45,570 nucleotides of DNA from Synergistaceae bacterium (lineage in GTDB: Bacteria; Synergistota; Synergistia; Synergistales; Aminobacteriaceae), in assembly GCA_017443945.1 (NCBI GenBank), contig JAFSXS010000009.1, positions 1 to 45,570 on the forward strand, written 5' to 3'. The notes under the pieces were generated by a model, which saw only the letters and a program-made list of their open reading frames with translations, made no database searches and was not told the DNA's origin. The position numbers and the translations under genes are program-made. Of this stretch, positions 27,069 through 35,061 are shown in pieces (position 1 is the first letter of the stretch; the number at the start of each line of letters is the position of its first letter).

Positions 27069-29180
27069 TTATCGGGAAATATTGCCGGTCTTTACGAAAA
27101 TATAAAATCGTGATTTACTGACATTATAGCGTTTAAATAGTGAGGCGATAAATTTCATTGTACTTTCTGCGCTTAAACCTGTATCAATAAATATTTTGTC
27201 TCGTATTTCCTTAGGGTTCGTCATAGAGTCAGAGCCGTATTTGATATAAATTTTTTCTCCTGATGTAAACGAATAATTTTTGCGCGCAAGTTCTTCAAGT
27301 ATGGCGGAATTTTGTTCGTCTAAGAGCTTTACTACATCAACGAGCATATATGCAAAAGTGTTCTGCTTATATTCTTCACCGTCAAACACGAAAGAATACA
27401 AATTTTGCTTTGTTGCCATGCTTGAATCGTCATCAAGAGTAATTTTTGTGAGGTAGTCAAATTTTATATCAGGATCGTTAATTTTCTCCGTCTTGAATAA
27501 TTGCATAACTATTTTTGCGAGTCTTTCTGCGCGTGATTTAATCTCGTTTACTGTCCATGAAGATTTATTTGTAACGTCAGAATTTAATTTTACGGCTTTA
27601 GTAGGGTTATCTTCACTTGTAAGCAGCTTTATTTTTTCCGCAAAACTTTTATTTGAGAGTTCCGAATTATAGCCGGTTATAGTGAGATTTCCGAGAGTGT
27701 GCAAAAATTTATCATGGTCTTCACTTGAAATAACGCGCCTCCATTCGGGAGAAAGATTTTGCGGCATAATATGTTCTATTGTCATATCATCGAAATTAAG
27801 AACTTCTTTAGAGCCGCCGTTTTCTATTTCGCGCAGAATAAATTTGCAAAGTGCGTTGCTGCTTCTACTGTATAAATCTTGATTCAGCAAAGAATCTCTA
27901 AATTTTTCATCACTGGGCATAGCGTCATTTGAGGATTGAATCGAGATAAATTTATTTATTGATTCATAATATTTTTGCTTGTTTCCCTGAATCTTGAACG
28001 CACGAGAATATAAAGCCGCGAAAAATCCCCGTAATGAATTGCTCGGAATCTTACAGACCAGCCGCCGCAAAATATAGCTGAATATAAATTTTACAGTTTT
28101 CGAGAGAGTCTCAGCGTCAATAATTTTTTTCTCGTAATCATCAAAAACGTGCAGCAAAAACGGGTAACAAGTAGTCTGCTTGAGAAATCTTAAATCATCA
28201 AGACATTTCATGACATCAGCCGGATATTTTTTCTTAGAGTCTTTATTCACAAATGCGCTGTAGATGCCTGACAAATTTTTTAGTTCTGCGAGTATTCCAA
28301 AACGTGTTAAATTTTTCTCGTCAAATAAATCTACAAACCGGCGGTATAAAATTTTCTTGTTGATTTCTTTTGCAGCCGAACCGCTTATAAACGTTATATA
28401 GTGCATGAAAAAATTATTTATGTCCTCGTCGGACTCGTCAGCGTTTAAATTGTGCTCGATTACCTGCCAGTTGTTAAATAAAATTTTCTGATTGCCGGGA
28501 GATTCCTTCATGAGCAAAAAATTTCGTATTAAATCAGCATTAGAGAGATTCAGCCCCGTTGAATTAAGACTCTCAAAAATTGCCTGCTGGTCGTCATCTC
28601 TGCCCATTTCTATAGCTACAACTTTGAGTTTCTTAACCGCAGCTAAAATTTTCGAGGGGAAATAATTACTATTAAGCCATTCTTGAACGCGTGCCAAACA
28701 AATTTGGTAATTCTTAAATATTCGCCCTGACTCGTTAATAATTTCGTGTTTATCGTCAAGTAAAGCCTCGAACTGTTCAAAATCTGAATTTGAAGACAGC
28801 AGCTTGATTCTATAATTCGGGCAATAACGGTTAAATAACATATCATTTATTTCGTAGCAAATGCTTTCGTCGCCGTTTTCTTTTCCTGAATCGTACAGAG
28901 CCTTCAAGAGGAGCATTATAGTTGTAATTCTCTGCTGGCCGTCGATTATTATATATTCAGTATCGATATTTTCGCTGCGTTCGCTTGAATTTAAATTTAC
29001 GTACACCATTGTCCCGAAAAAGTGTTCGCGTTCTGAAGTCATAATTTTTTCGATGTCATCAAGCAGCATTTTGCACTGTTCTTCGTTCCAGCTGTAATTG
29101 CGCTGATAAACCGGAATCCGTAAAAGTATTTTATTGCGGTTTATTATACCTGTAACGAGTCCATTTTCGTGAGCTTCCAT
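27069..29180 (-). CDS. DUF262/DUF1524 (GmrSD-like) nuclease, first of tandem pair
   Basis: This is a 703-residue paralogue of the next gene, with canonical motifs: IPVYQRNYSWNEEQC (22-36), DGQQRITTI (80-88), FESLNSTGLNLSNADLIRN near 202, TIEHIMPQNL (467-476) and HTLGNLTITGYN (494-505). It is about 100 residues longer, mainly from an insert at about 100-160 and extra sequence near 380-440. By similarity to GmrSD and SspE-type enzymes it should couple NTP binding to DNA cleavage in phage defence. The start at 29180 follows GGGAGAAAATTTTTTAC; extending to 29273 would add a hydrophobic tail without a ribosome site. The two genes form an isolated two-gene unit between housekeeping operons. Confidence 0.87.
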   Translation of the reverse strand: MEAHENGLVTGIINRNKILLRIPVYQRNYSWNEEQCKMLLDDIEKIMTSEREHFFGTMVYVNLNSSERSENIDTEYIIIDGQQRITTIMLLLKALYDSGKENGDESICYEINDMLFNRYCPNYRIKLLSSNSDFEQFEALLDDKHEIINESGRIFKNYQICLARVQEWLNSNYFPSKILAAVKKLKVVAIEMGRDDDQQAIFESLNSTGLNLSNADLIRNFLLMKESPGNQKILFNNWQVIEHNLNADESDEDINNFFMHYITFISGSAAKEINKKILYRRFVDLFDEKNLTRFGILAELKNLSGIYSAFVNKDSKKKYPADVMKCLDDLRFLKQTTCYPFLLHVFDDYEKKIIDAETLSKTVKFIFSYILRRLVCKIPSNSLRGFFAALYSRAFKIQGNKQKYYESINKFISIQSSNDAMPSDEKFRDSLLNQDLYSRSSNALCKFILREIENGGSKEVLNFDDMTIEHIMPQNLSPEWRRVISSEDHDKFLHTLGNLTITGYNSELSNKSFAEKIKLLTSEDNPTKAVKLNSDVTNKSSWTVNEIKSRAERLAKIVMQLFKTEKINDPDIKFDYLTKITLDDDSSMATKQNLYSFVFDGEEYKQNTFAYMLVDVVKLLDEQNSAILEELARKNYSFTSGEKIYIKYGSDSMTNPKEIRDKIFIDTGLSAESTMKFIASLFKRYNVSKSRFYIFVKTGNISR

Positions 29181-29556
29181 GTAAAAAATTTTCTCCCGTG
29201 ATTTATTATTTATATATGCGGTTAGGATTATAGCAAAAAATTTTATGATTATTATCAATATTCTACAGAACATACAAAAAATTTATCGCCCCATTTAAAC
29301 ACGTCTGAAATAATTTGCGGCTCGAACATGCAAAATTTTTTATTATGAGTCTATGAATCATCGCGAAACTTTTTTTAACTGACTCATAAAACTTTATAGC
29401 CATTAAATAAAATTAATATTCTTGTAGTTGCAAATGTAGTTGTAAAATATCTATCCGTGAAATAAATTTTATCGTGAAGTGAATTACTCTTGCTGACTCA
29501 TTATAGCACAAAAAATTTGCCTCCCATCATACAACGAGAGGCCGATAAATTATTTA
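29181..29556. other. AT-rich upstream region of the GmrSD-like pair
   Basis: No gene seen. It contains a 9-bp inverted repeat (TTATGAGTC at 29343-29351 and GACTCATAA at 29381-29389, 29 nt apart with a T-run between), a tandem 12-mer direct repeat (TGTAGTTGCAAA/TGTAGTTGTAAA, 29423-29446), and the lysC terminator at its right end. The repeats may be regulator binding sites; no clear promoter was picked out. Confidence 0.45.
29508..29542 (-). terminator. Terminator of the DAP/lysine operon
   Basis: On the minus strand GCCTCTC (29542-29536) pairs with GGGAGGC (29525-29519) with one wobble around a 10-nt loop, followed by AAATTTTTT. It lies 15 bp after the lysC stop. Confidence 0.75.
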
Positions 29557-30864
29557 TTATTCTATCATTGACTTATAGAGCGCGTTAATTGCCTTCTTGT
29601 AGTCTGAGTCATCGATTCCTACAATAATATTTAACTCGTCGGAACCTTGATCGATCATTCTTATATTTATTCCCGCATTTGCAAGAGACGCAAAAATTTT
29701 CGCCGCAATCCCTTTAACGCCTGCCATACCTTCACCGACAATTGCAACAGCCGCTAAATTTTTCTCGATCGTGATAAAATCGGGTGCAAGTTCATTCTTA
29801 ATTTCGCGCAGAATCTCATCACGCTTTGAGTCAAATAAATCACTGCTCACTATTACAGAAATCGTGTCTATTCCCGTCGGACAATGTTCAAAGGGTACGC
29901 CGTTTTTCGCGAAAATGTACAATAATTTTGCGCCGAATCCTGTTTCACCGTTCATCATACTTTTTTCGACTCTTATGCTGCAAAATCCTTTACGGCCTGC
30001 AATTCCTGTAACGGGTCTGCGAGTCATATCTTTTGGAAGTGAAGCAGCTATTAACGTGCCTTTGTCATCGGGTTTATTTGTGTTGCGGATATTTATGGGG
30101 ATTCCTGCCTGCCTTACGGGAAAAACTGCGTCTTCATGCAAAACGCTTGCTCCCATGTAACTTAATTCGCGCAATTCAGTATATGTAATATAATCAATTA
30201 CCCGCGGATTATTTACGATTCTGGGATCTGCGCTCAACATTCCTGAAACGTCCGTCCAATTTTCGTATAAATCAGCCTTTACCGCACGAGCAACAATCGA
30301 GCCCGTAATATCAGAACCTCCGCGCGAAAAAGTTTTTATACTTCCGTCGGGCATACTCCCATAAAAGCCGGGAATAACTGCGCACTTGAGAGACTTTAAT
30401 TTTTCGCCCATAACGTAAAAAGTTTTTGACTCATCAAGAAGGCCGGACTCGTTGAAGAAAATTACTTCAGAAGCGTCCACGAACTCCCAGCCAAGAAAAC
30501 GCGCAATAATCTTCGAGTTAATATATTCTCCCCGGCTCGCAAGATAATCACGGCTTGAAATATTTTGCTTGATTGCGTTAATTTCCGAGTCAATGTCAAA
30601 ATTTATCGCTAAGTCTTTAATAATTGCTGCGTAACGTTCTGAAATCTGCGATAAAGTCCCGTTAAAGTCTTCAGAGTTCATAAATTGCGAATGAGCTTTA
30701 TACAACAAGTCCGTAATCTTTATATCGTCCGTGAATCTTTTGCCGGGGGCAGAAGCTACGACATAACGCCGTGCAGGGTCATTTTTTATGATTGCAGCGA
30801 CTTTCTTAATTTGTGAAGCGTCCGCTAATGAAGTCCCGCCGAATTTTGCTGTAATAGTATTCAA
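29557..30864 (-). CDS. lysC: Aspartate kinase
   Basis: It phosphorylates aspartate, the first step toward DAP, lysine, threonine and methionine. The N-terminal KFGGTS motif (residues 7-12) is the kinase signature; SRGGSDITGSIVARAV and WTDVSGMLSADPR are typical substrate and nucleotide regions. The C-terminal part, from about residue 300, holds two ACT-like regulatory folds (VAIVGEGMAGVKGIAAKIFA; IRMIDQGSDELNIIVGID), so feedback inhibition is likely. It has 435 residues. The start is TTG at 30864, 2 bp after the upstream stop, forced by the closeness of KFGGTS. It is the last gene of the operon. Confidence 0.93.
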   Translation of the reverse strand: MNTITAKFGGTSLADASQIKKVAAIIKNDPARRYVVASAPGKRFTDDIKITDLLYKAHSQFMNSEDFNGTLSQISERYAAIIKDLAINFDIDSEINAIKQNISSRDYLASRGEYINSKIIARFLGWEFVDASEVIFFNESGLLDESKTFYVMGEKLKSLKCAVIPGFYGSMPDGSIKTFSRGGSDITGSIVARAVKADLYENWTDVSGMLSADPRIVNNPRVIDYITYTELRELSYMGASVLHEDAVFPVRQAGIPINIRNTNKPDDKGTLIAASLPKDMTRRPVTGIAGRKGFCSIRVEKSMMNGETGFGAKLLYIFAKNGVPFEHCPTGIDTISVIVSSDLFDSKRDEILREIKNELAPDFITIEKNLAAVAIVGEGMAGVKGIAAKIFASLANAGINIRMIDQGSDELNIIVGIDDSDYKKAINALYKSMIE

Positions 30865-30866
30865 GT

Positions 30867-32009
30867 TTAAATCAGTCCCATATTAAAATTTGTTACGACG
30901 GCTGAATGTATTGCCGAAGCTGTTATTATTGCGTCATCTTTGGGCAAAAATTTATCACTGTGCAAAGGATAATCAGACTCTGCGCCAATGTGATAAAAGC
31001 AGCCCGTTTTTGCCATGATGAAACATCCGAAATCTTCGCTTATCATTGTAGGAGACTCAATAATTTTCACGTGTTCAGAGCCTAGAGTCTCACGAGCAAT
31101 TTTTTCAACGAAAGAATTTAATTTGTCATTGTCATTAATTACACCGGGGGCACTGCTTATAATTTCGCATTCAGATTTTGCGCCGAACTTGGCCGGAATT
31201 TCCTGCGACAATTTTTTTACTTCATCGCACATTTTTTCGCGCTGGTCTACTCCGAACGTGCGGACGATTCCGAGTAATTCTGCCTCACCTGCTAAAATAT
31301 TTCTGACTGTACCAGACTCAAATTTCCCGACTGTTACGACATGGCCGGGCTGATTCATCTTCAATAGCTCAATAACTAAATGCGAGGCTGCTTCTATTGC
31401 GTCAATGCCTTTATCTCTCTGCGCACCGTGAGAGCTTTTGCCGATAACATTAATATTAAACATTCCCGACGACGCGTAAAAATTTCCGTATTTAATGCCA
31501 ATATCGCCAGCCTTCAAAGCCGGATCAACGTGAGCACCGAAAACTGCATCAACATTTTCAAGCGCGCCTAAATCAATCATTCGCTGAGCTCCGCCGTCGC
31601 CTTCTTCATCAGGTTGAAATAAAAACGTTACTGAACCAGATAAATTTTCGCGATTACGAGCTAATATCATTGCAGCACCTAATACGCCCGTCATATGAAC
31701 ATCATGACCGCATGCGTGCATAAATCCCGGATTCTGTGAGGCAAATTCGCAATTAGTTGACTCATTTATCGGAAGTGCGTCAATGTCAGTTCTTAACGCT
31801 GAATTTTTACCGGGGTGAACGCCTTCAAGTTTTGCAATTATTCCCGTGTTTAATACGCGTTTATGAGTTATTCCGGCTTCGTCTAAATAATGCTCGATTA
31901 AATCAGCCGTCTTAAATTCATGATTGCCTATTTCGGGAATCTTGTGAAATTCTTTGCGGATACCGAGTAATTTTGCCCGTAAATTTTCTGCTTCCTGTAA
32001 AAAATTCAT
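30867..32009 (-). CDS. dapL: M20-family amidohydrolase, probable N-acetyldiaminopimelate deacetylase
   Basis: This is a two-domain zinc hydrolase of 380 residues. Metal-binding motifs are visible: ACGHDVHMTGVLGAA near residue 98, QPDEEGDGGAQRMID near 132 with the catalytic Glu pair, GAHVDP near 158, and a late His in GCFYHIGAE. The sequence alone fits several M20D enzymes (hippurate hydrolase, IAA-amino acid hydrolase, YkuR). The position directly after dapH makes N-acetyl-L,L-diaminopimelate deacetylase the best call: it removes the acetyl group that DapH adds. The symbol dapL follows the B. subtilis use for this enzyme, not the aminotransferase of the same name. Confidence 0.85.
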   Translation of the reverse strand: MNFLQEAENLRAKLLGIRKEFHKIPEIGNHEFKTADLIEHYLDEAGITHKRVLNTGIIAKLEGVHPGKNSALRTDIDALPINESTNCEFASQNPGFMHACGHDVHMTGVLGAAMILARNRENLSGSVTFLFQPDEEGDGGAQRMIDLGALENVDAVFGAHVDPALKAGDIGIKYGNFYASSGMFNINVIGKSSHGAQRDKGIDAIEAASHLVIELLKMNQPGHVVTVGKFESGTVRNILAGEAELLGIVRTFGVDQREKMCDEVKKLSQEIPAKFGAKSECEIISSAPGVINDNDKLNSFVEKIARETLGSEHVKIIESPTMISEDFGCFIMAKTGCFYHIGAESDYPLHSDKFLPKDDAIITASAIHSAVVTNFNMGLI

Positions 32010-32012
32010 GAT

Positions 32013-32711
32013 TCAAATTTTCCTTAGTGAAGGCTCTAATGCAGTCTTGAGAGTCGTGTTAGAGTCTTTATCCTTTATTATTTTTGCAGGACAACCGGCG
32101 ACGACTTTATTTGCGGGTACATCTTCAATTACTACAGCTCCGGCAGCAATAACGGCATTTTCTCCGACGTGAACGCCCTCGATTACAACAGCATTTGCAC
32201 CGATTAAAACATTATCGTCAATTATTACGGGTTTTGCGCTTGCCGGTTCGATAACGCCTGCGAGTACTGCACCTGCTCCGACGTGGCAATTTTTCCCGAC
32301 TGTTGCGCGTCCTCCGAGTACAGCTCCCATATCAATCATTGTGTTGTCGCCGATAACTGCACCGATGTTGATAATTGCTCCCATCATGATGACGGCGTTT
32401 TTTCCGATTGAGACATTATCGCGGATTATTGCGCCTGGTTCTATGCGGGCCTGAATATTTTTCATGTCTAATAATGGGATTGCGCTGTTTCTTGCTTGAT
32501 TCTCGATTACAATATCAGAAATTTTTGACTCATTTGCTTTAATGACCGGCTCAAGTTCTGACCAGTCCCCGAAAATAATTTTATCGCCAGTCCCGAAAAT
32601 TTTTGCGTTAGTGTGTGAGAAATCGATATTTTCATTCTCGCGCAAATAGATTTTAACGGGAGTAACCTTTTTAGAGTCGGCGATGAATTTAATAATTTCT
32701 TGTGCGTCCAT
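32013..32711 (-). CDS. dapH: Tetrahydrodipicolinate N-acetyltransferase
   Basis: It acetylates tetrahydrodipicolinate in the N-acetyl branch of DAP synthesis. The N-terminal 80 residues are the DapH-specific domain; residues 85-215 form a left-handed beta-helix of hexapeptide repeats ([20 protein letters not shown], then [31 protein letters not shown]), and [16 protein letters not shown] closes it. Length 232 residues matches DapH and not the longer DapD succinyl enzymes. An AGGTGA ribosome site precedes the ATG. The 150-bp gap to dapB contains the second GC-rich repeat. Confidence 0.95.
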
Positions 32712-32788
32712 AAATTAATCACCTGCTAGAAAATTTTTTAATTTCTTGTGAGTCCCCATTAATGGCGGGAAAAAATTTTTTGTGATTC

Positions 32789-32841
32789 CGTATGCGGGGA
32801 CCCCAGAGCCCTCCCCGCACCCCCCCGCCCAGGAGTCGCGC
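32789..32841 (+). repeat. GC-rich structured repeat, copy 2
   Basis: GCGGGGA (32794-32800) pairs with TCCCCGC (32812-32818) around the loop CCCCAGAGCCC, followed by a C-rich run and GCCCAGGAGTCGCGC. Compared with copy 1 at 12709-12768, the stem bases differ but still pair, while the loop and right end are nearly identical. It lies between dapB and dapH, so it is part of the operon mRNA as the complementary strand. Confidence 0.75.
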
Positions 32842-32861: not shown

Positions 32862-33593
32862 TCATGAGATAAAATCTTTCATGCCGTAAAAGCCTGCTGA
32901 CTGACTCACAAGCCATTTTGCCGCCGATAATGCACCGTTTGCAAATAATGCCCTGTTCTTAGCGTCGTGCTTTAACGTTATAGTCTCGAGTCCGTTCGAG
33001 AAAATTATTTCATGAGTCCCGACTTCAGAGCCATATCTTAATGAATGAATGCCGATCTCGTTTTTATCGCGTTTTCCGTTAGAGTGCCTGCCGATATTAA
33101 ATGTGCTGTCCGGTTTGGAGTCTTTGATTCTTTGAGCGAGCATTAAAGCTGTACCGCTGGGAACGTCTAATTTCTGATTATGATGAGCTTCAATTAACTC
33201 AATATCGCAATCAGTAAAAATTTTCGCGACTCTCTCGGCCAAGTCAGCAACAAGAGCAACCCCAATTGACATATTAGGAGACATGAAGACGGGAATTTTT
33301 TTCGCGGCATCACGGATTAAATTTAATTCTTCGTCAGTGTGTCCGGTTGAAGCAATTAAAACGGGTAAATTACGACTCACGCAATATTTCACGAGTTCGG
33401 GCGCAGCTTTGTGATTCGAGAAATCTATAACGCAGTCTGCCGAGCCTTTGAAGTCTTCAAGTTTATTATATTTGCCGTCCTCATTTGTGAAAGCTACATC
33501 AACGAGAGCAGCAATATTTTCGCCTGCATTTACGGCCATGTCAGATAAAATTTTTCCCATTTTACCGCCGGCACCGTTAATAATTAATTTCAT
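32862..33593 (-). CDS. dapB: 4-hydroxy-tetrahydrodipicolinate reductase
   Basis: It reduces the DapA product with NAD(P)H. The N-terminal Rossmann motif is INGAGGKMGKIL (residues 4-15). CVIDFSNHKAAPELVKYC and ASTGHTDEEL line the cofactor site. EAHHNQKLDVPSGTALMLAQ near residue 135 is the DapB signature with catalytic His and Lys. It has 243 residues, slightly short but normal for the family. It starts 1 bp after the dapA stop and lies second in the operon. Confidence 0.95.
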   Translation of the reverse strand: MKLIINGAGGKMGKILSDMAVNAGENIAALVDVAFTNEDGKYNKLEDFKGSADCVIDFSNHKAAPELVKYCVSRNLPVLIASTGHTDEELNLIRDAAKKIPVFMSPNMSIGVALVADLAERVAKIFTDCDIELIEAHHNQKLDVPSGTALMLAQRIKDSKPDSTFNIGRHSNGKRDKNEIGIHSLRYGSEVGTHEIIFSNGLETITLKHDAKNRALFANGALSAAKWLVSQSAGFYGMKDFIS

Positions 33594-33594
33594 G

Positions 33595-34473
33595 CTAGAT
33601 TAGCCCCTGTTCCTGCATTAAAGATTTCAAGTGCTGCCAGTGAGATTCTTCCATTGGTACGAGAGGGAGTCTTAAATGATTCCCGCAGAAATTCATAGCG
33701 GCCATAGCTGCTTTAACGGGAATGGGGTTAACTTCACAGAATAAAGCATTAATCAGCGGGAGTAATTGACACTGTAATTTTGCTGCGCCTTCTACGTCGC
33801 CCGCCCAGAATTTATTACAAATTTCCATAGTTAATTTAGGAGCAGGATTCGACAGCACAGAAATAACGCCCTTGCCGCCCATTGAAAGAATCGGGACAAT
33901 TTGATCATCGTTGCCTGAATAAATGTCAAGTTTATCGCCGACTAAATGAAAAGTTTGCACGATTTTGCTGATATTTCCGTTAGCTTCCTTAATGCCTGCG
34001 ATATTTGGGTGATCTGCTAATTTTGCGTAAGTCTCAGGCTCGATATTTACTCCTGTTCTTGATGGGACGTTATATAAAATTACGGGTTTTGTTGACGCGT
34101 CTGCAATGGCAGTATACATTTTTACAAGACCGTTTTGCGTTGTCTTATTATAGTAGGGAGTAACGAGAAGTAAAGCATCTGCCCCGGCATCACAACAATA
34201 TTTTGAAAGCTGAATCGCGTATCTTGTATCGTTTGAACCTGTTGCAGCAATAATCGGACATTTTCCCGCGACTCTATCGACTGCAAATTTTACGACCTGT
34301 TTGTGTTCTGCGTCATCGAGTGTAGAGCCTTCACCGGTAGTGCCTGCAATTACAAGTGCGTTAATGCCTTGTTCGACCTGCCAATCAAGAACGCGCGCGA
34401 AAGAGTCATAATCGACTCCGTTATCATTCGTAGGAGTAATAAGAGCTGTAGCAACTCCCTTAAAAACTGTCAT
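33595..34473 (-). CDS. dapA: 4-hydroxy-tetrahydrodipicolinate synthase
   Basis: It condenses pyruvate with aspartate semialdehyde, the committed step to DAP and lysine. It is a 292-residue TIM barrel with GTTGEGSTL near residue 44, the YNVPSRTGVNI motif with catalytic Tyr near 134, and the Schiff-base Lys in GIKEANG near 161. AAAGGAGAG precedes the ATG. It is the first gene of dapA-dapB-dapH-deacetylase-lysC, with a promoter at 34704-34732 and an attenuator-like leader between. Confidence 0.95.
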   Translation of the reverse strand: MTVFKGVATALITPTNDNGVDYDSFARVLDWQVEQGINALVIAGTTGEGSTLDDAEHKQVVKFAVDRVAGKCPIIAATGSNDTRYAIQLSKYCCDAGADALLLVTPYYNKTTQNGLVKMYTAIADASTKPVILYNVPSRTGVNIEPETYAKLADHPNIAGIKEANGNISKIVQTFHLVGDKLDIYSGNDDQIVPILSMGGKGVISVLSNPAPKLTMEICNKFWAGDVEGAAKLQCQLLPLINALFCEVNPIPVKAAMAAMNFCGNHLRLPLVPMEESHWQHLKSLMQEQGLI

Positions 34474-34501: not shown

Positions 34502-34529
34502 AAAAAAACCGCCCTTATGAGTGAGCGGT
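34502..34529 (-). terminator. Attenuator terminator in the dapA leader
   Basis: On the minus strand ACCGCTC (34529-34523) pairs with GGGCGGT (34514-34508) with one wobble, followed by seven T. It sits about 30 bp before the dapA ATG and after the promoter, so it must be read through for expression. Its left arm can instead pair with TGAGCGG at 34572-34566. Confidence 0.85.
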
Positions 34530-34569
34530 CTCTATATGCGAAATATTAAAATATGCACAGTTCATCCGC

Positions 34570-34662
34570 TCAAGCATGGAAAAAATTACGTTTTATCTTG
34601 AGGAACGACGCACAGGAAGAATAATTTACATTTGCAAGAAACGCATTAATGAACGTAAACAT
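34570..34662 (-). CDS. Putative leader peptide of the DAP/lysine operon
   Basis: A 30-codon frame starts with ATG at 34662, 12 nt after AGGAGG (34680-34675), just downstream of the dapA promoter, and ends with TGA at 34572-34570. It contains Lys-Ile-Lys-Arg at codons 22-25 and several Phe. The Leu-Lys codons CTCAAG (34602-34597) can pair with CTTGAG (34574-34569), which overlaps the stop codon; TGAGCGG (34572-34566) can in turn pair with CCGCTCA (34528-34522) of the terminator. This is the 1:2, 2:3, 3:4 design of amino-acid attenuators. The peptide itself is likely to have no other role. Only two Lys codons are present, so the sensed amino acid is an inference. Confidence 0.65.
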   Translation of the reverse strand: MFTFINAFLANVNYSSCASFLKIKRNFFHA

Positions 34663-34703
34663 AAAAATTTTTATCCTCCTGTCAGCATATGAATTTTCGT
34701 GAA

Positions 34704-34732
34704 ATAATAAACGGGAAAATTTAATCTGTCAA
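34704..34732 (-). promoter_or_regulatory. Strong sigma-70 promoter of the DAP/lysine operon
   Basis: On the minus strand a perfect TTGACA (34732-34727), a 17-nt spacer and TATTAT (34709-34704). Transcription would start near 34697, giving a leader of about 220 nt before dapA. Confidence 0.85.
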
Positions 34733-34736
34733 TGTT

Positions 34737-34907
34737 TTATTTCTCGTAATGAGTAGCGCATGAAGTAATTATATATGTTCTTTGTTTATATGCCGCTTCT
34801 AATGGGATTTCTTTAGAGCGTATGACCTGCCGCAAAAAAACATTTACAGCCGTCTGAATGTCAAAGCCAAACTCGTCAAGTAATTCTTTAGCCCGTGCTG
34901 CTAACGT
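34737..34907 (-). pseudogene. RelB/DinJ-type antitoxin remnant, N-terminal start lost
   Basis: Read from 34907 on the minus strand, 56 codons give RAKELLDEFGFDIQTAVNVF, then LRQVIRSKEIPLE, the ribbon-helix-helix core of RelB/DinJ antitoxins. The first beta strand is missing: an ATG at 34912 is in another frame that stops after seven codons, and the true frame has a TGA just upstream. A small deletion after the start codon would explain this. No toxin gene follows; the fragment ends 5 bp before the dapA -35 box. Confidence 0.65.
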
Positions 34908-34914
34908 TCATAAT

Positions 34915-35061
34915 TTACACCTCTATTAAATCATGAATAATAATTTTGCCTTCTTTGGCCTGCTGTACACTGTGCAAAATGCGCTCAAGTGTTTCACCGC
35001 TAAAATATGAGTCATAATCATTGATGTTGTTATTGTCATTATAAATTTCGTCTGGACTCAT
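34915..35061 (-). CDS. Small acidic protein resembling the C-terminal half of a RelB/DinJ antitoxin
   Basis: A 48-residue frame with a good ribosome site (AGGAGA, 9 nt before the ATG at 35061). The end, YFSGETLERILHSV then AKEGKIIIHDLIEV, resembles the toxin-binding tail common in RelB/DinJ antitoxins, without the DNA-binding half. The next fragment downstream is an N-terminal half in another frame. It may be a decayed antitoxin or a small expressed protein; no RelE or YafQ toxin is next to it. Confidence 0.5.
   Translation of the reverse strand: MSPDEIYNDNNNINDYDSYFSGETLERILHSVQQAKEGKIIIHDLIEV

Follow-up and report, generated by a model that had tools for sequence, protein, structure and literature searches.

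A rumen bacterium of the phylum Synergistota, along with most species of its genus, appears to control its lysine genes by having a ribosome test a lysine-containing leader peptide. In the window studied here (a stretch of 45,570 nucleotides from a Synergistaceae genome), the DAP/lysine operon is preceded by an RNA leader that is, in our judgement, very probably a ribosome-mediated transcription attenuator of the trp/his type, which senses charged tRNA-Lys. The mechanism itself (that is, ribosome-mediated attenuation) is a known one, and the leader is a new instance of it and not a new mechanism. Lysine genes are textbook riboswitch territory, and a comparison of sequences suggests that this leader-peptide switch appears to replace the lysine riboswitch or the T-box that is found before dapA in other bacteria.

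The leader is read from the minus strand and consists, in order, of a promoter, an AGGAGG Shine-Dalgarno (SD) sequence at 34680-34675, a 30-codon frame beginning with ATG, three competing pairings, and a terminator with a tract of seven T residues that ends at 34502, followed by the SD sequence of dapA and by the dapA start at 34473 (Table 1). A first-pass annotation of this DNA had proposed an attenuator on the basis of the promoter, the AGGAGG, the frame, the pairs CTCAAG/CTTGAG and TGAGCGG/CCGCTCA and the T7 tract, and all of these are present on the minus strand where it had placed them, exact to the base. Its assignment of the downstream genes to a DAP/lysine operon was likewise borne out by family matches, which identify dapA, dapB, dapH, an M20 deacylase and lysC; the M20 amidohydrolase adjoins dapH and is therefore probably an N-acetyl-diaminopimelate deacetylase. 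TTGACA and a -10-like hexamer are found upstream of the leader in 30 of 31 homologs, the sole exception being truncated by the end of a contig. Folding of the dapA leader RNA, which had been suggested as a check, indicated that it is more stable than shuffled sequences (z -3.2), and the part that reaches from segment 1 to the terminator (34610-34495) gave a z of -3.5.

Table 1. Features of the attenuator and the operon, in window coordinates
Feature	Position	Strand	Basis or remark
Sigma-70 type promoter, TTGACA-N17-TATTAT	34704..34732	-	11/12 matches
Shine-Dalgarno region ACAGGAGGA, 5' arm of SD lock helix	34674..34682	-	pairs with in-frame site
Leader peptide frame, 30 codons, ends LKIKRNFFHA-stop	34570..34662	-	open in 31 homologs
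Anti-SD arm TCTTCCTGT, inside leader frame just before segment 1	34612..34620	-	pairs with SD
Segment 1 (TCGTTCCTCAAG)	34597..34608	-	pairs with segment 2; includes CTCAAG 34602-34597
Putative control codons AAG-ATA-AAA-CGT, Lys22-Ile23-Lys24-Arg25	34588..34599	-	Lys conservation in homologs
Segment 2 (CTTGAGCGGATGA)	34562..34574	-	contains stop TGA 34572-34570, CTTGAG 34574-34569, antiterminator core TGAGCGG 34572-34566
Segment 3 (CCGCTCA)	34522..34528	-	antiterminator 3' arm and terminator 5' arm
Segment 4, GGGCGG and T7	34502..34514	-	terminator 3' arm and U-tract
dapA, 4-hydroxy-tetrahydrodipicolinate synthase	33595..34473	-	TIGR00674 equivalog, 331 bits against a cut-off of 206
dapB, 4-hydroxy-tetrahydrodipicolinate reductase	32862..33593	-	TIGR00036
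dapH, tetrahydrodipicolinate N-acetyltransferase	32013..32711	-	TIGR03532
M20 amidohydrolase	30867..32009	-	TIGR01891, PF01546
lysC, aspartate kinase with ACT domains	29557..30864	-	NF006540, PF22468

Several further elements were noted around the operon. The spacer between dapB and dapH is a dispersed repeat (32745-32841), of which eight more partial copies occur in the same genome, and a gene of the GmrSD type (type IV restriction) lies immediately 3' of lysC on the minus strand (27069-29273). On the other side of the leader, a minus-strand frame at 34737-35000, named by eye, joins a RelB-like antitoxin to a YoeB-like C-terminus (...SCATHYEK), and is apparently the deletion remnant of a toxin-antitoxin pair; a YoeB-like end is found at the equivalent place upstream of the leader in two relatives (L005 and L075).

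The leader frame, which reads MFTFINAFLANVNYSSCASFLKIKRNFFHA from the ATG at 34662 to 34570, is presumably translated. It contains no stop codon in any of 31 intact leaders, compared to 71 and 64 stops in the other two frames (which are open in none and in two of the 31, respectively), and an ATG frame led by an SD sequence is present in 30 of 31 homologs, the SD of the remaining one (G009) being more distant from the ATG. The frame varies between 23 and 39 codons in length and its N-terminal part is variable, and the C-terminal end mostly retains the motif S-x-L-K-[I/M]-K-R. In the comparison of related dapA leaders that the first-pass annotation had recommended, the frame with its SD sequence, the Lys codons and the alternative pairings are all retained. 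Within K-[I/M]-K-R it is the codons of the two lysines that would exert control, which refines the earlier placement of the stall at codons 22-24 (Lys-Ile-Lys).

Across 28 homologs the second of these lysines is never replaced, yet its codon differs, being AAG in 18 leaders and AAA in 10. The first is found in 27 of the 28, as well as in all five leaders examined later; the single leader without it (G003) has an extra Lys two codons past the second (PGIKRK). The prevailing codons at the control site in these 28 leaders are AAG for the first Lys (23), ATA (26) and CGT (25), each of them a minority codon among the genes of the window (27% of Lys, 28% of Ile and 18% of Arg codons, respectively). 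Because the only tRNA-Lys gene found among the approximately 31 of 37 tRNA genes that were read has the anticodon UUU, AAG is probably decoded by wobble. The second Lys codon is separated from the stop by 7 to 10 codons in 27 of the 28 homologs, with a full range of 7 to 14.

The consensus of the genus is GTCATCACTCAAG for segment 1, CTTAGTGAATGACGG for segment 2, CCGCTCATTCAC for segment 3, and GGGCGG followed by T7 for segment 4. The pairing of CTCAAG with CTTGAG is present as had been described, but its extent had been understated: it is really a longer helix, in which 34608-34597 pairs with 34574-34569 plus 34567-34562. The perfect pairing of TGAGCGG with CCGCTCA, the position of the latter as the left arm of the terminator and the T7 tract before dapA are all in the sequence and conserved. 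The window is itself a register variant, in which the pairing between segments 2 and 3 is shifted relative to the consensus of the genus (GTGAATGACGG:CCGCTCATTCAC); where the window has CTTGAGCGGATGAACTG, its closest relative (G122) has CTTGAGTGGATGACGG, and in the window TGAGCGG consequently pairs with CCGCTCA without a bulge.

The proposal of three competing pairings of the trp type is supported in that native partners pair better than species-swapped ones in 1:2 and 2:3, and in that the 3:4 stem is conserved. The mean energies of native and swapped partners were -13.6 and -11.9 kcal/mol for 1:2, and -15.1 and -13.2 kcal/mol for 2:3, while for a further helix between the SD region and an anti-SD arm within the leader frame they were -12.4 and -10.1 kcal/mol (2.3 better); in all three cases 0 of 20,000 permutations was as good, a significance that is inflated by the kinship of the genomes, in that partner-swap permutations ignore shared descent. 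The SD:anti-SD pairing is a fourth conserved element, absent from the first-pass annotation, and may serve either to shut the start site behind the first ribosome or to curb translation of the leader on finished transcripts.

The outer part of the 2:3 helix displays compensated variants on several branches (GTGAA/TTCAC; GTGGA/TCCAC in G031; GCGGA/TCCGC in G029 and G002; GAGGA/TCCTC in G003; and GAGAA/TTCTC in G061), its columns are paired in 91% of cases against at most 48% in slid controls, and its column covariation score was matched by only one of 500 shuffles. For 3:4, the stem cells of the terminator are paired in 98% across 27 homologs, and column covariation gives mild support because this helix hardly varies; a simple terminator scan did not list this terminator, though it is evident on inspection and is kept in the homologs. 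Column covariation of 1:2 on an automatic alignment equalled that of shuffles (79.1% versus 78.9%), and the argument for this helix was therefore drawn from energies and position.

The competition between these helices was modelled by masking the part of each leader that a ribosome would cover. When the A site was placed on the second Lys codon and transcription had not yet reached segment 4, the predicted probability of the antiterminator averaged 0.96 over 31 leaders, in agreement with the earlier suggestion that a stall at the Lys codons would free segment 2. A ribosome placed at the stop codon instead gave the terminator at a mean predicted probability of 0.97 (the single low value, from G003, reflecting a segment 3 misplaced by the script), and with no ribosome the terminator won in 27 of the 31. 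At equilibrium with a stalled ribosome and segment 4 present, the antiterminator was favoured in 13 of the 31 leaders and the terminator in 18, including that of the window (0.97). Because segment 4, once present, favours the terminator in those 18 leaders, the switch would depend on the order of transcription, as known attenuators likewise do.

The elements found, the degree to which they are conserved and the competition predicted among them lead us to infer how stalling, the response to lysine, the direction of regulation and the SD helix would fit together. RNA polymerase would start approximately 35 nucleotides upstream of the leader ATG, and a ribosome would load on the leader frame. When Lys-tRNA is plentiful, that ribosome would pass K-I-K-R, reach the stop codon and cover segment 2, so that segment 3 would pair with segment 4 and transcription would terminate before dapA. 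When Lys-tRNA is scarce, it would stall at the Lys codons and cover segment 1, leaving segment 2 free to pair with segment 3 while segment 4 is still to be transcribed, and thus permitting read-through into dapA-dapB-dapH-deacylase-lysC. In the absence of a ribosome, 1:2 would form and the terminator would follow by default. The SD:anti-SD helix might close the leader start after the first ribosome, such that about one ribosome would test each transcript.

Lysine is proposed as the signal because of the Lys codons and the identity of the operon. A point against this reading is that only two or three Lys codons occur at the control site; his and thr leaders have more control codons, and trp has two. 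The amino acid specificity is also not fully isolated, since the neighbouring Ile and Arg codons are conserved almost as strongly as Lys. The leader might accordingly sense translation, or Arg or Ile instead of lysine, with CGT or ATA as the true control codon, and the near fixation of those two minority codons (in 25 and 26 of the 28 leaders) is what such sensing would lead one to expect; but G013 has Leu and G002 has His in place of Arg, G025 and G020 have Met in place of Ile, the second Lys is kept in every homolog, and the products of the operon are DAP and lysine, all of which make this account very unlikely. The ATA codon also enters an elaboration that we consider a long shot, in which an AAG-AUA-AAG site would read lysine twice, through the charging of tRNA-Lys and through lysidine on tRNA-Ile2, with the SD:anti-SD helix imposing a test by one ribosome per transcript. 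Lysidine is a lysine-derived base that tRNA-Ile2 requires in order to read AUA.

Two other accounts were considered. It is very improbable that the leader encodes an arrest peptide, in which nascent K-I-K-R in the exit tunnel would bind free lysine and the arrested ribosome would set the fold of the RNA: a short basic motif is indeed kept while the remaining peptide drifts, and ornithine-sensing arrest peptides with basic motifs are known (SpeFL senses ornithine, as TnaC senses tryptophan), but arrest at high lysine would here free segment 2 and turn synthesis on, which is the wrong sign, and no residues are conserved at a fixed distance from the stop, given the spacing of 7 to 14 codons from the second Lys. 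Control of the terminator by a metabolite-binding RNA or an RNA-binding protein, with the small frame incidental, would suit a terminator and antiterminator taken alone, as well as the frequency of riboswitches before dapA and the L-box of its clostridial relatives. Against that, the frame is conserved with variation at the level of codons and is preceded by an SD sequence, no conserved region the size of an aptamer lies outside it, and the leader has no Rfam match, so that we regard such control as extremely unlikely.

In particular, the match to a known riboswitch model that would have spoken against the first-pass reading was sought and not found. The L-box (RF00168), which also lies just before dapA in rumen Clostridia, had no match in the window leader under an aptamer model that did recover its positive controls, and the T-box (RF00230) had none in the window by bulge motif or antiterminator. 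Rfam families, including the Trp, His, Thr, Leu and Phe leaders, gave no match in the leader, whether the gathering score or an E value of up to 5 was applied, and matches at loose thresholds were to sub-gathering chance families. No L-box exceeded the cut-off within the genus; a single sub-threshold match appeared across 61 relatives, and this sole candidate (in G009) was discarded, not being located before the orthologous dapA. The T-box resembles the proposed attenuator in that it also reads tRNA charging, and it precedes dapA in other Synergistota, but it uses uncharged tRNA directly and needs no ribosome.

Related genomes, on whose leaders the proposal hinged, were searched with a covariance model built from 27 dapA upstream regions of relatives. 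The sample comprised 188 Synergistota genomes (43 of the same genus and 145 others). Relatives named in public records are all uncultured MAGs, which come mostly from rumen and reticulum and carry the labels Synergistaceae, Synergistales or Fretibacterium. The leader was found in 34 of the 43 genus genomes, as one copy each (in G007, which carries an insertion, as two adjoining partial matches); all copies checked were directly upstream of dapA, and no additional copies were found within the same genomes, nor any in the other 145. Among genus genomes without the leader, no intact ortholog of the window dapA was found in G016, G018, G022, G034 and G155, while dapA is present without a leader in G015, G024 and G036. 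In G011 (locus L013, contig C11), the leader frame is deleted and the promoter and a GTGAATGACGG remnant of segment 2 persist before dapA, making this locus a natural knock-out of the attenuator. In a tree of dapA, the leader-bearing sequences form one well-supported clade that includes G011 (99/91), with the three basal species outside, and the simplest history that this suggests is a single gain and at least one loss. Separately, segment 2 at the G007 locus (L015, contig C73) is split by an insertion of approximately 100 bp, whose terminal sequence, CCCCGACTTCAGTCGTGGGGAGTATGTCAA, is similar to the end of an IS200/IS605 element; the attenuator is naturally disrupted there.

Most other genera of the family, like other families of the order, have a dapA of another type (approximately 45% identical), which usually follows a T-box: one was found at 11 of 17 loci in one scan and at five in another. 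Two loci (L039 and L041, in G055 and G047) have a pair of T-box-like antiterminator motifs (GGGTGGTACCGCGG) in succession upstream of dapA and may carry tandem T-boxes. The nearest relatives of the genus dapA are those of rumen Clostridia, at 67-74% identity; an L-box lies just upstream of dapA at 16 of 20 rumen Clostridia loci scanned, and in the dapA tree the genus falls within these L-box-preceded clostridial genes. The genus thus seems to have traded dapA with rumen Clostridia and to have gained a third kind of sensor afterwards. Because T-boxes occur elsewhere in the phylum and L-boxes before the nearest dapA relatives, the leader-peptide sensor looks like a replacement gained once in the genus. 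Exchanges between T-box, riboswitch and leader peptide were described by Naville and Gautheret (PMC2965389), though not for lysine.

The leader is classed with the trp/his-type attenuators because it would work alike and displays every feature of that class that was examined: (i) an SD-led frame after a promoter; (ii) control codons that correspond to the operon; (iii) mutually exclusive helices; (iv) a matching geometry of stall and stop; and (v) a terminator. It shares with the trp, his, thr, leu and phe attenuators of E. coli and other Proteobacteria a leader peptide with control codons and the 1:2, 2:3 and 3:4 alternatives, and with the trp/his type a stop codon that lies within or adjoins segment 2 and a U-tract terminator before the first biosynthesis gene; it differs from that type in its Lys control codons, the SD:anti-SD helix in the leader frame, its Synergistota lineage and the lack of an Rfam leader match. 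Attenuation by a lysine leader peptide was reportedly described in the lysine gene cluster of Thermus thermophilus (J Biol Chem, 2005), so that lysine-specific leader attenuation is rare but not unheard of. By its description, the Thermus leader also encodes a Lys-containing peptide, but serves the aminoadipate pathway in place of the DAP pathway. The earlier view that a peptide-based lysine switch would be notable needs the qualification that such a switch is not wholly unprecedented.

In the literature searched, no earlier report of a lysine leader in Synergistota was found; a paper in which Synergistetes and attenuators are both mentioned deals with histidine regulation (PMC9413887). RNA regulatory structures upstream of lysine operons were not found in a survey of Actinobacteria (PMC1262725). 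The leader would carry trp-type attenuation into the DAP pathway and, to judge from the literature searched, into Synergistota. With dapA following an L-box in rumen Clostridia, a T-box in the majority of the other Synergistota examined and the proposed attenuator in one genus, the swapping of sensors would become testable on close relatives.
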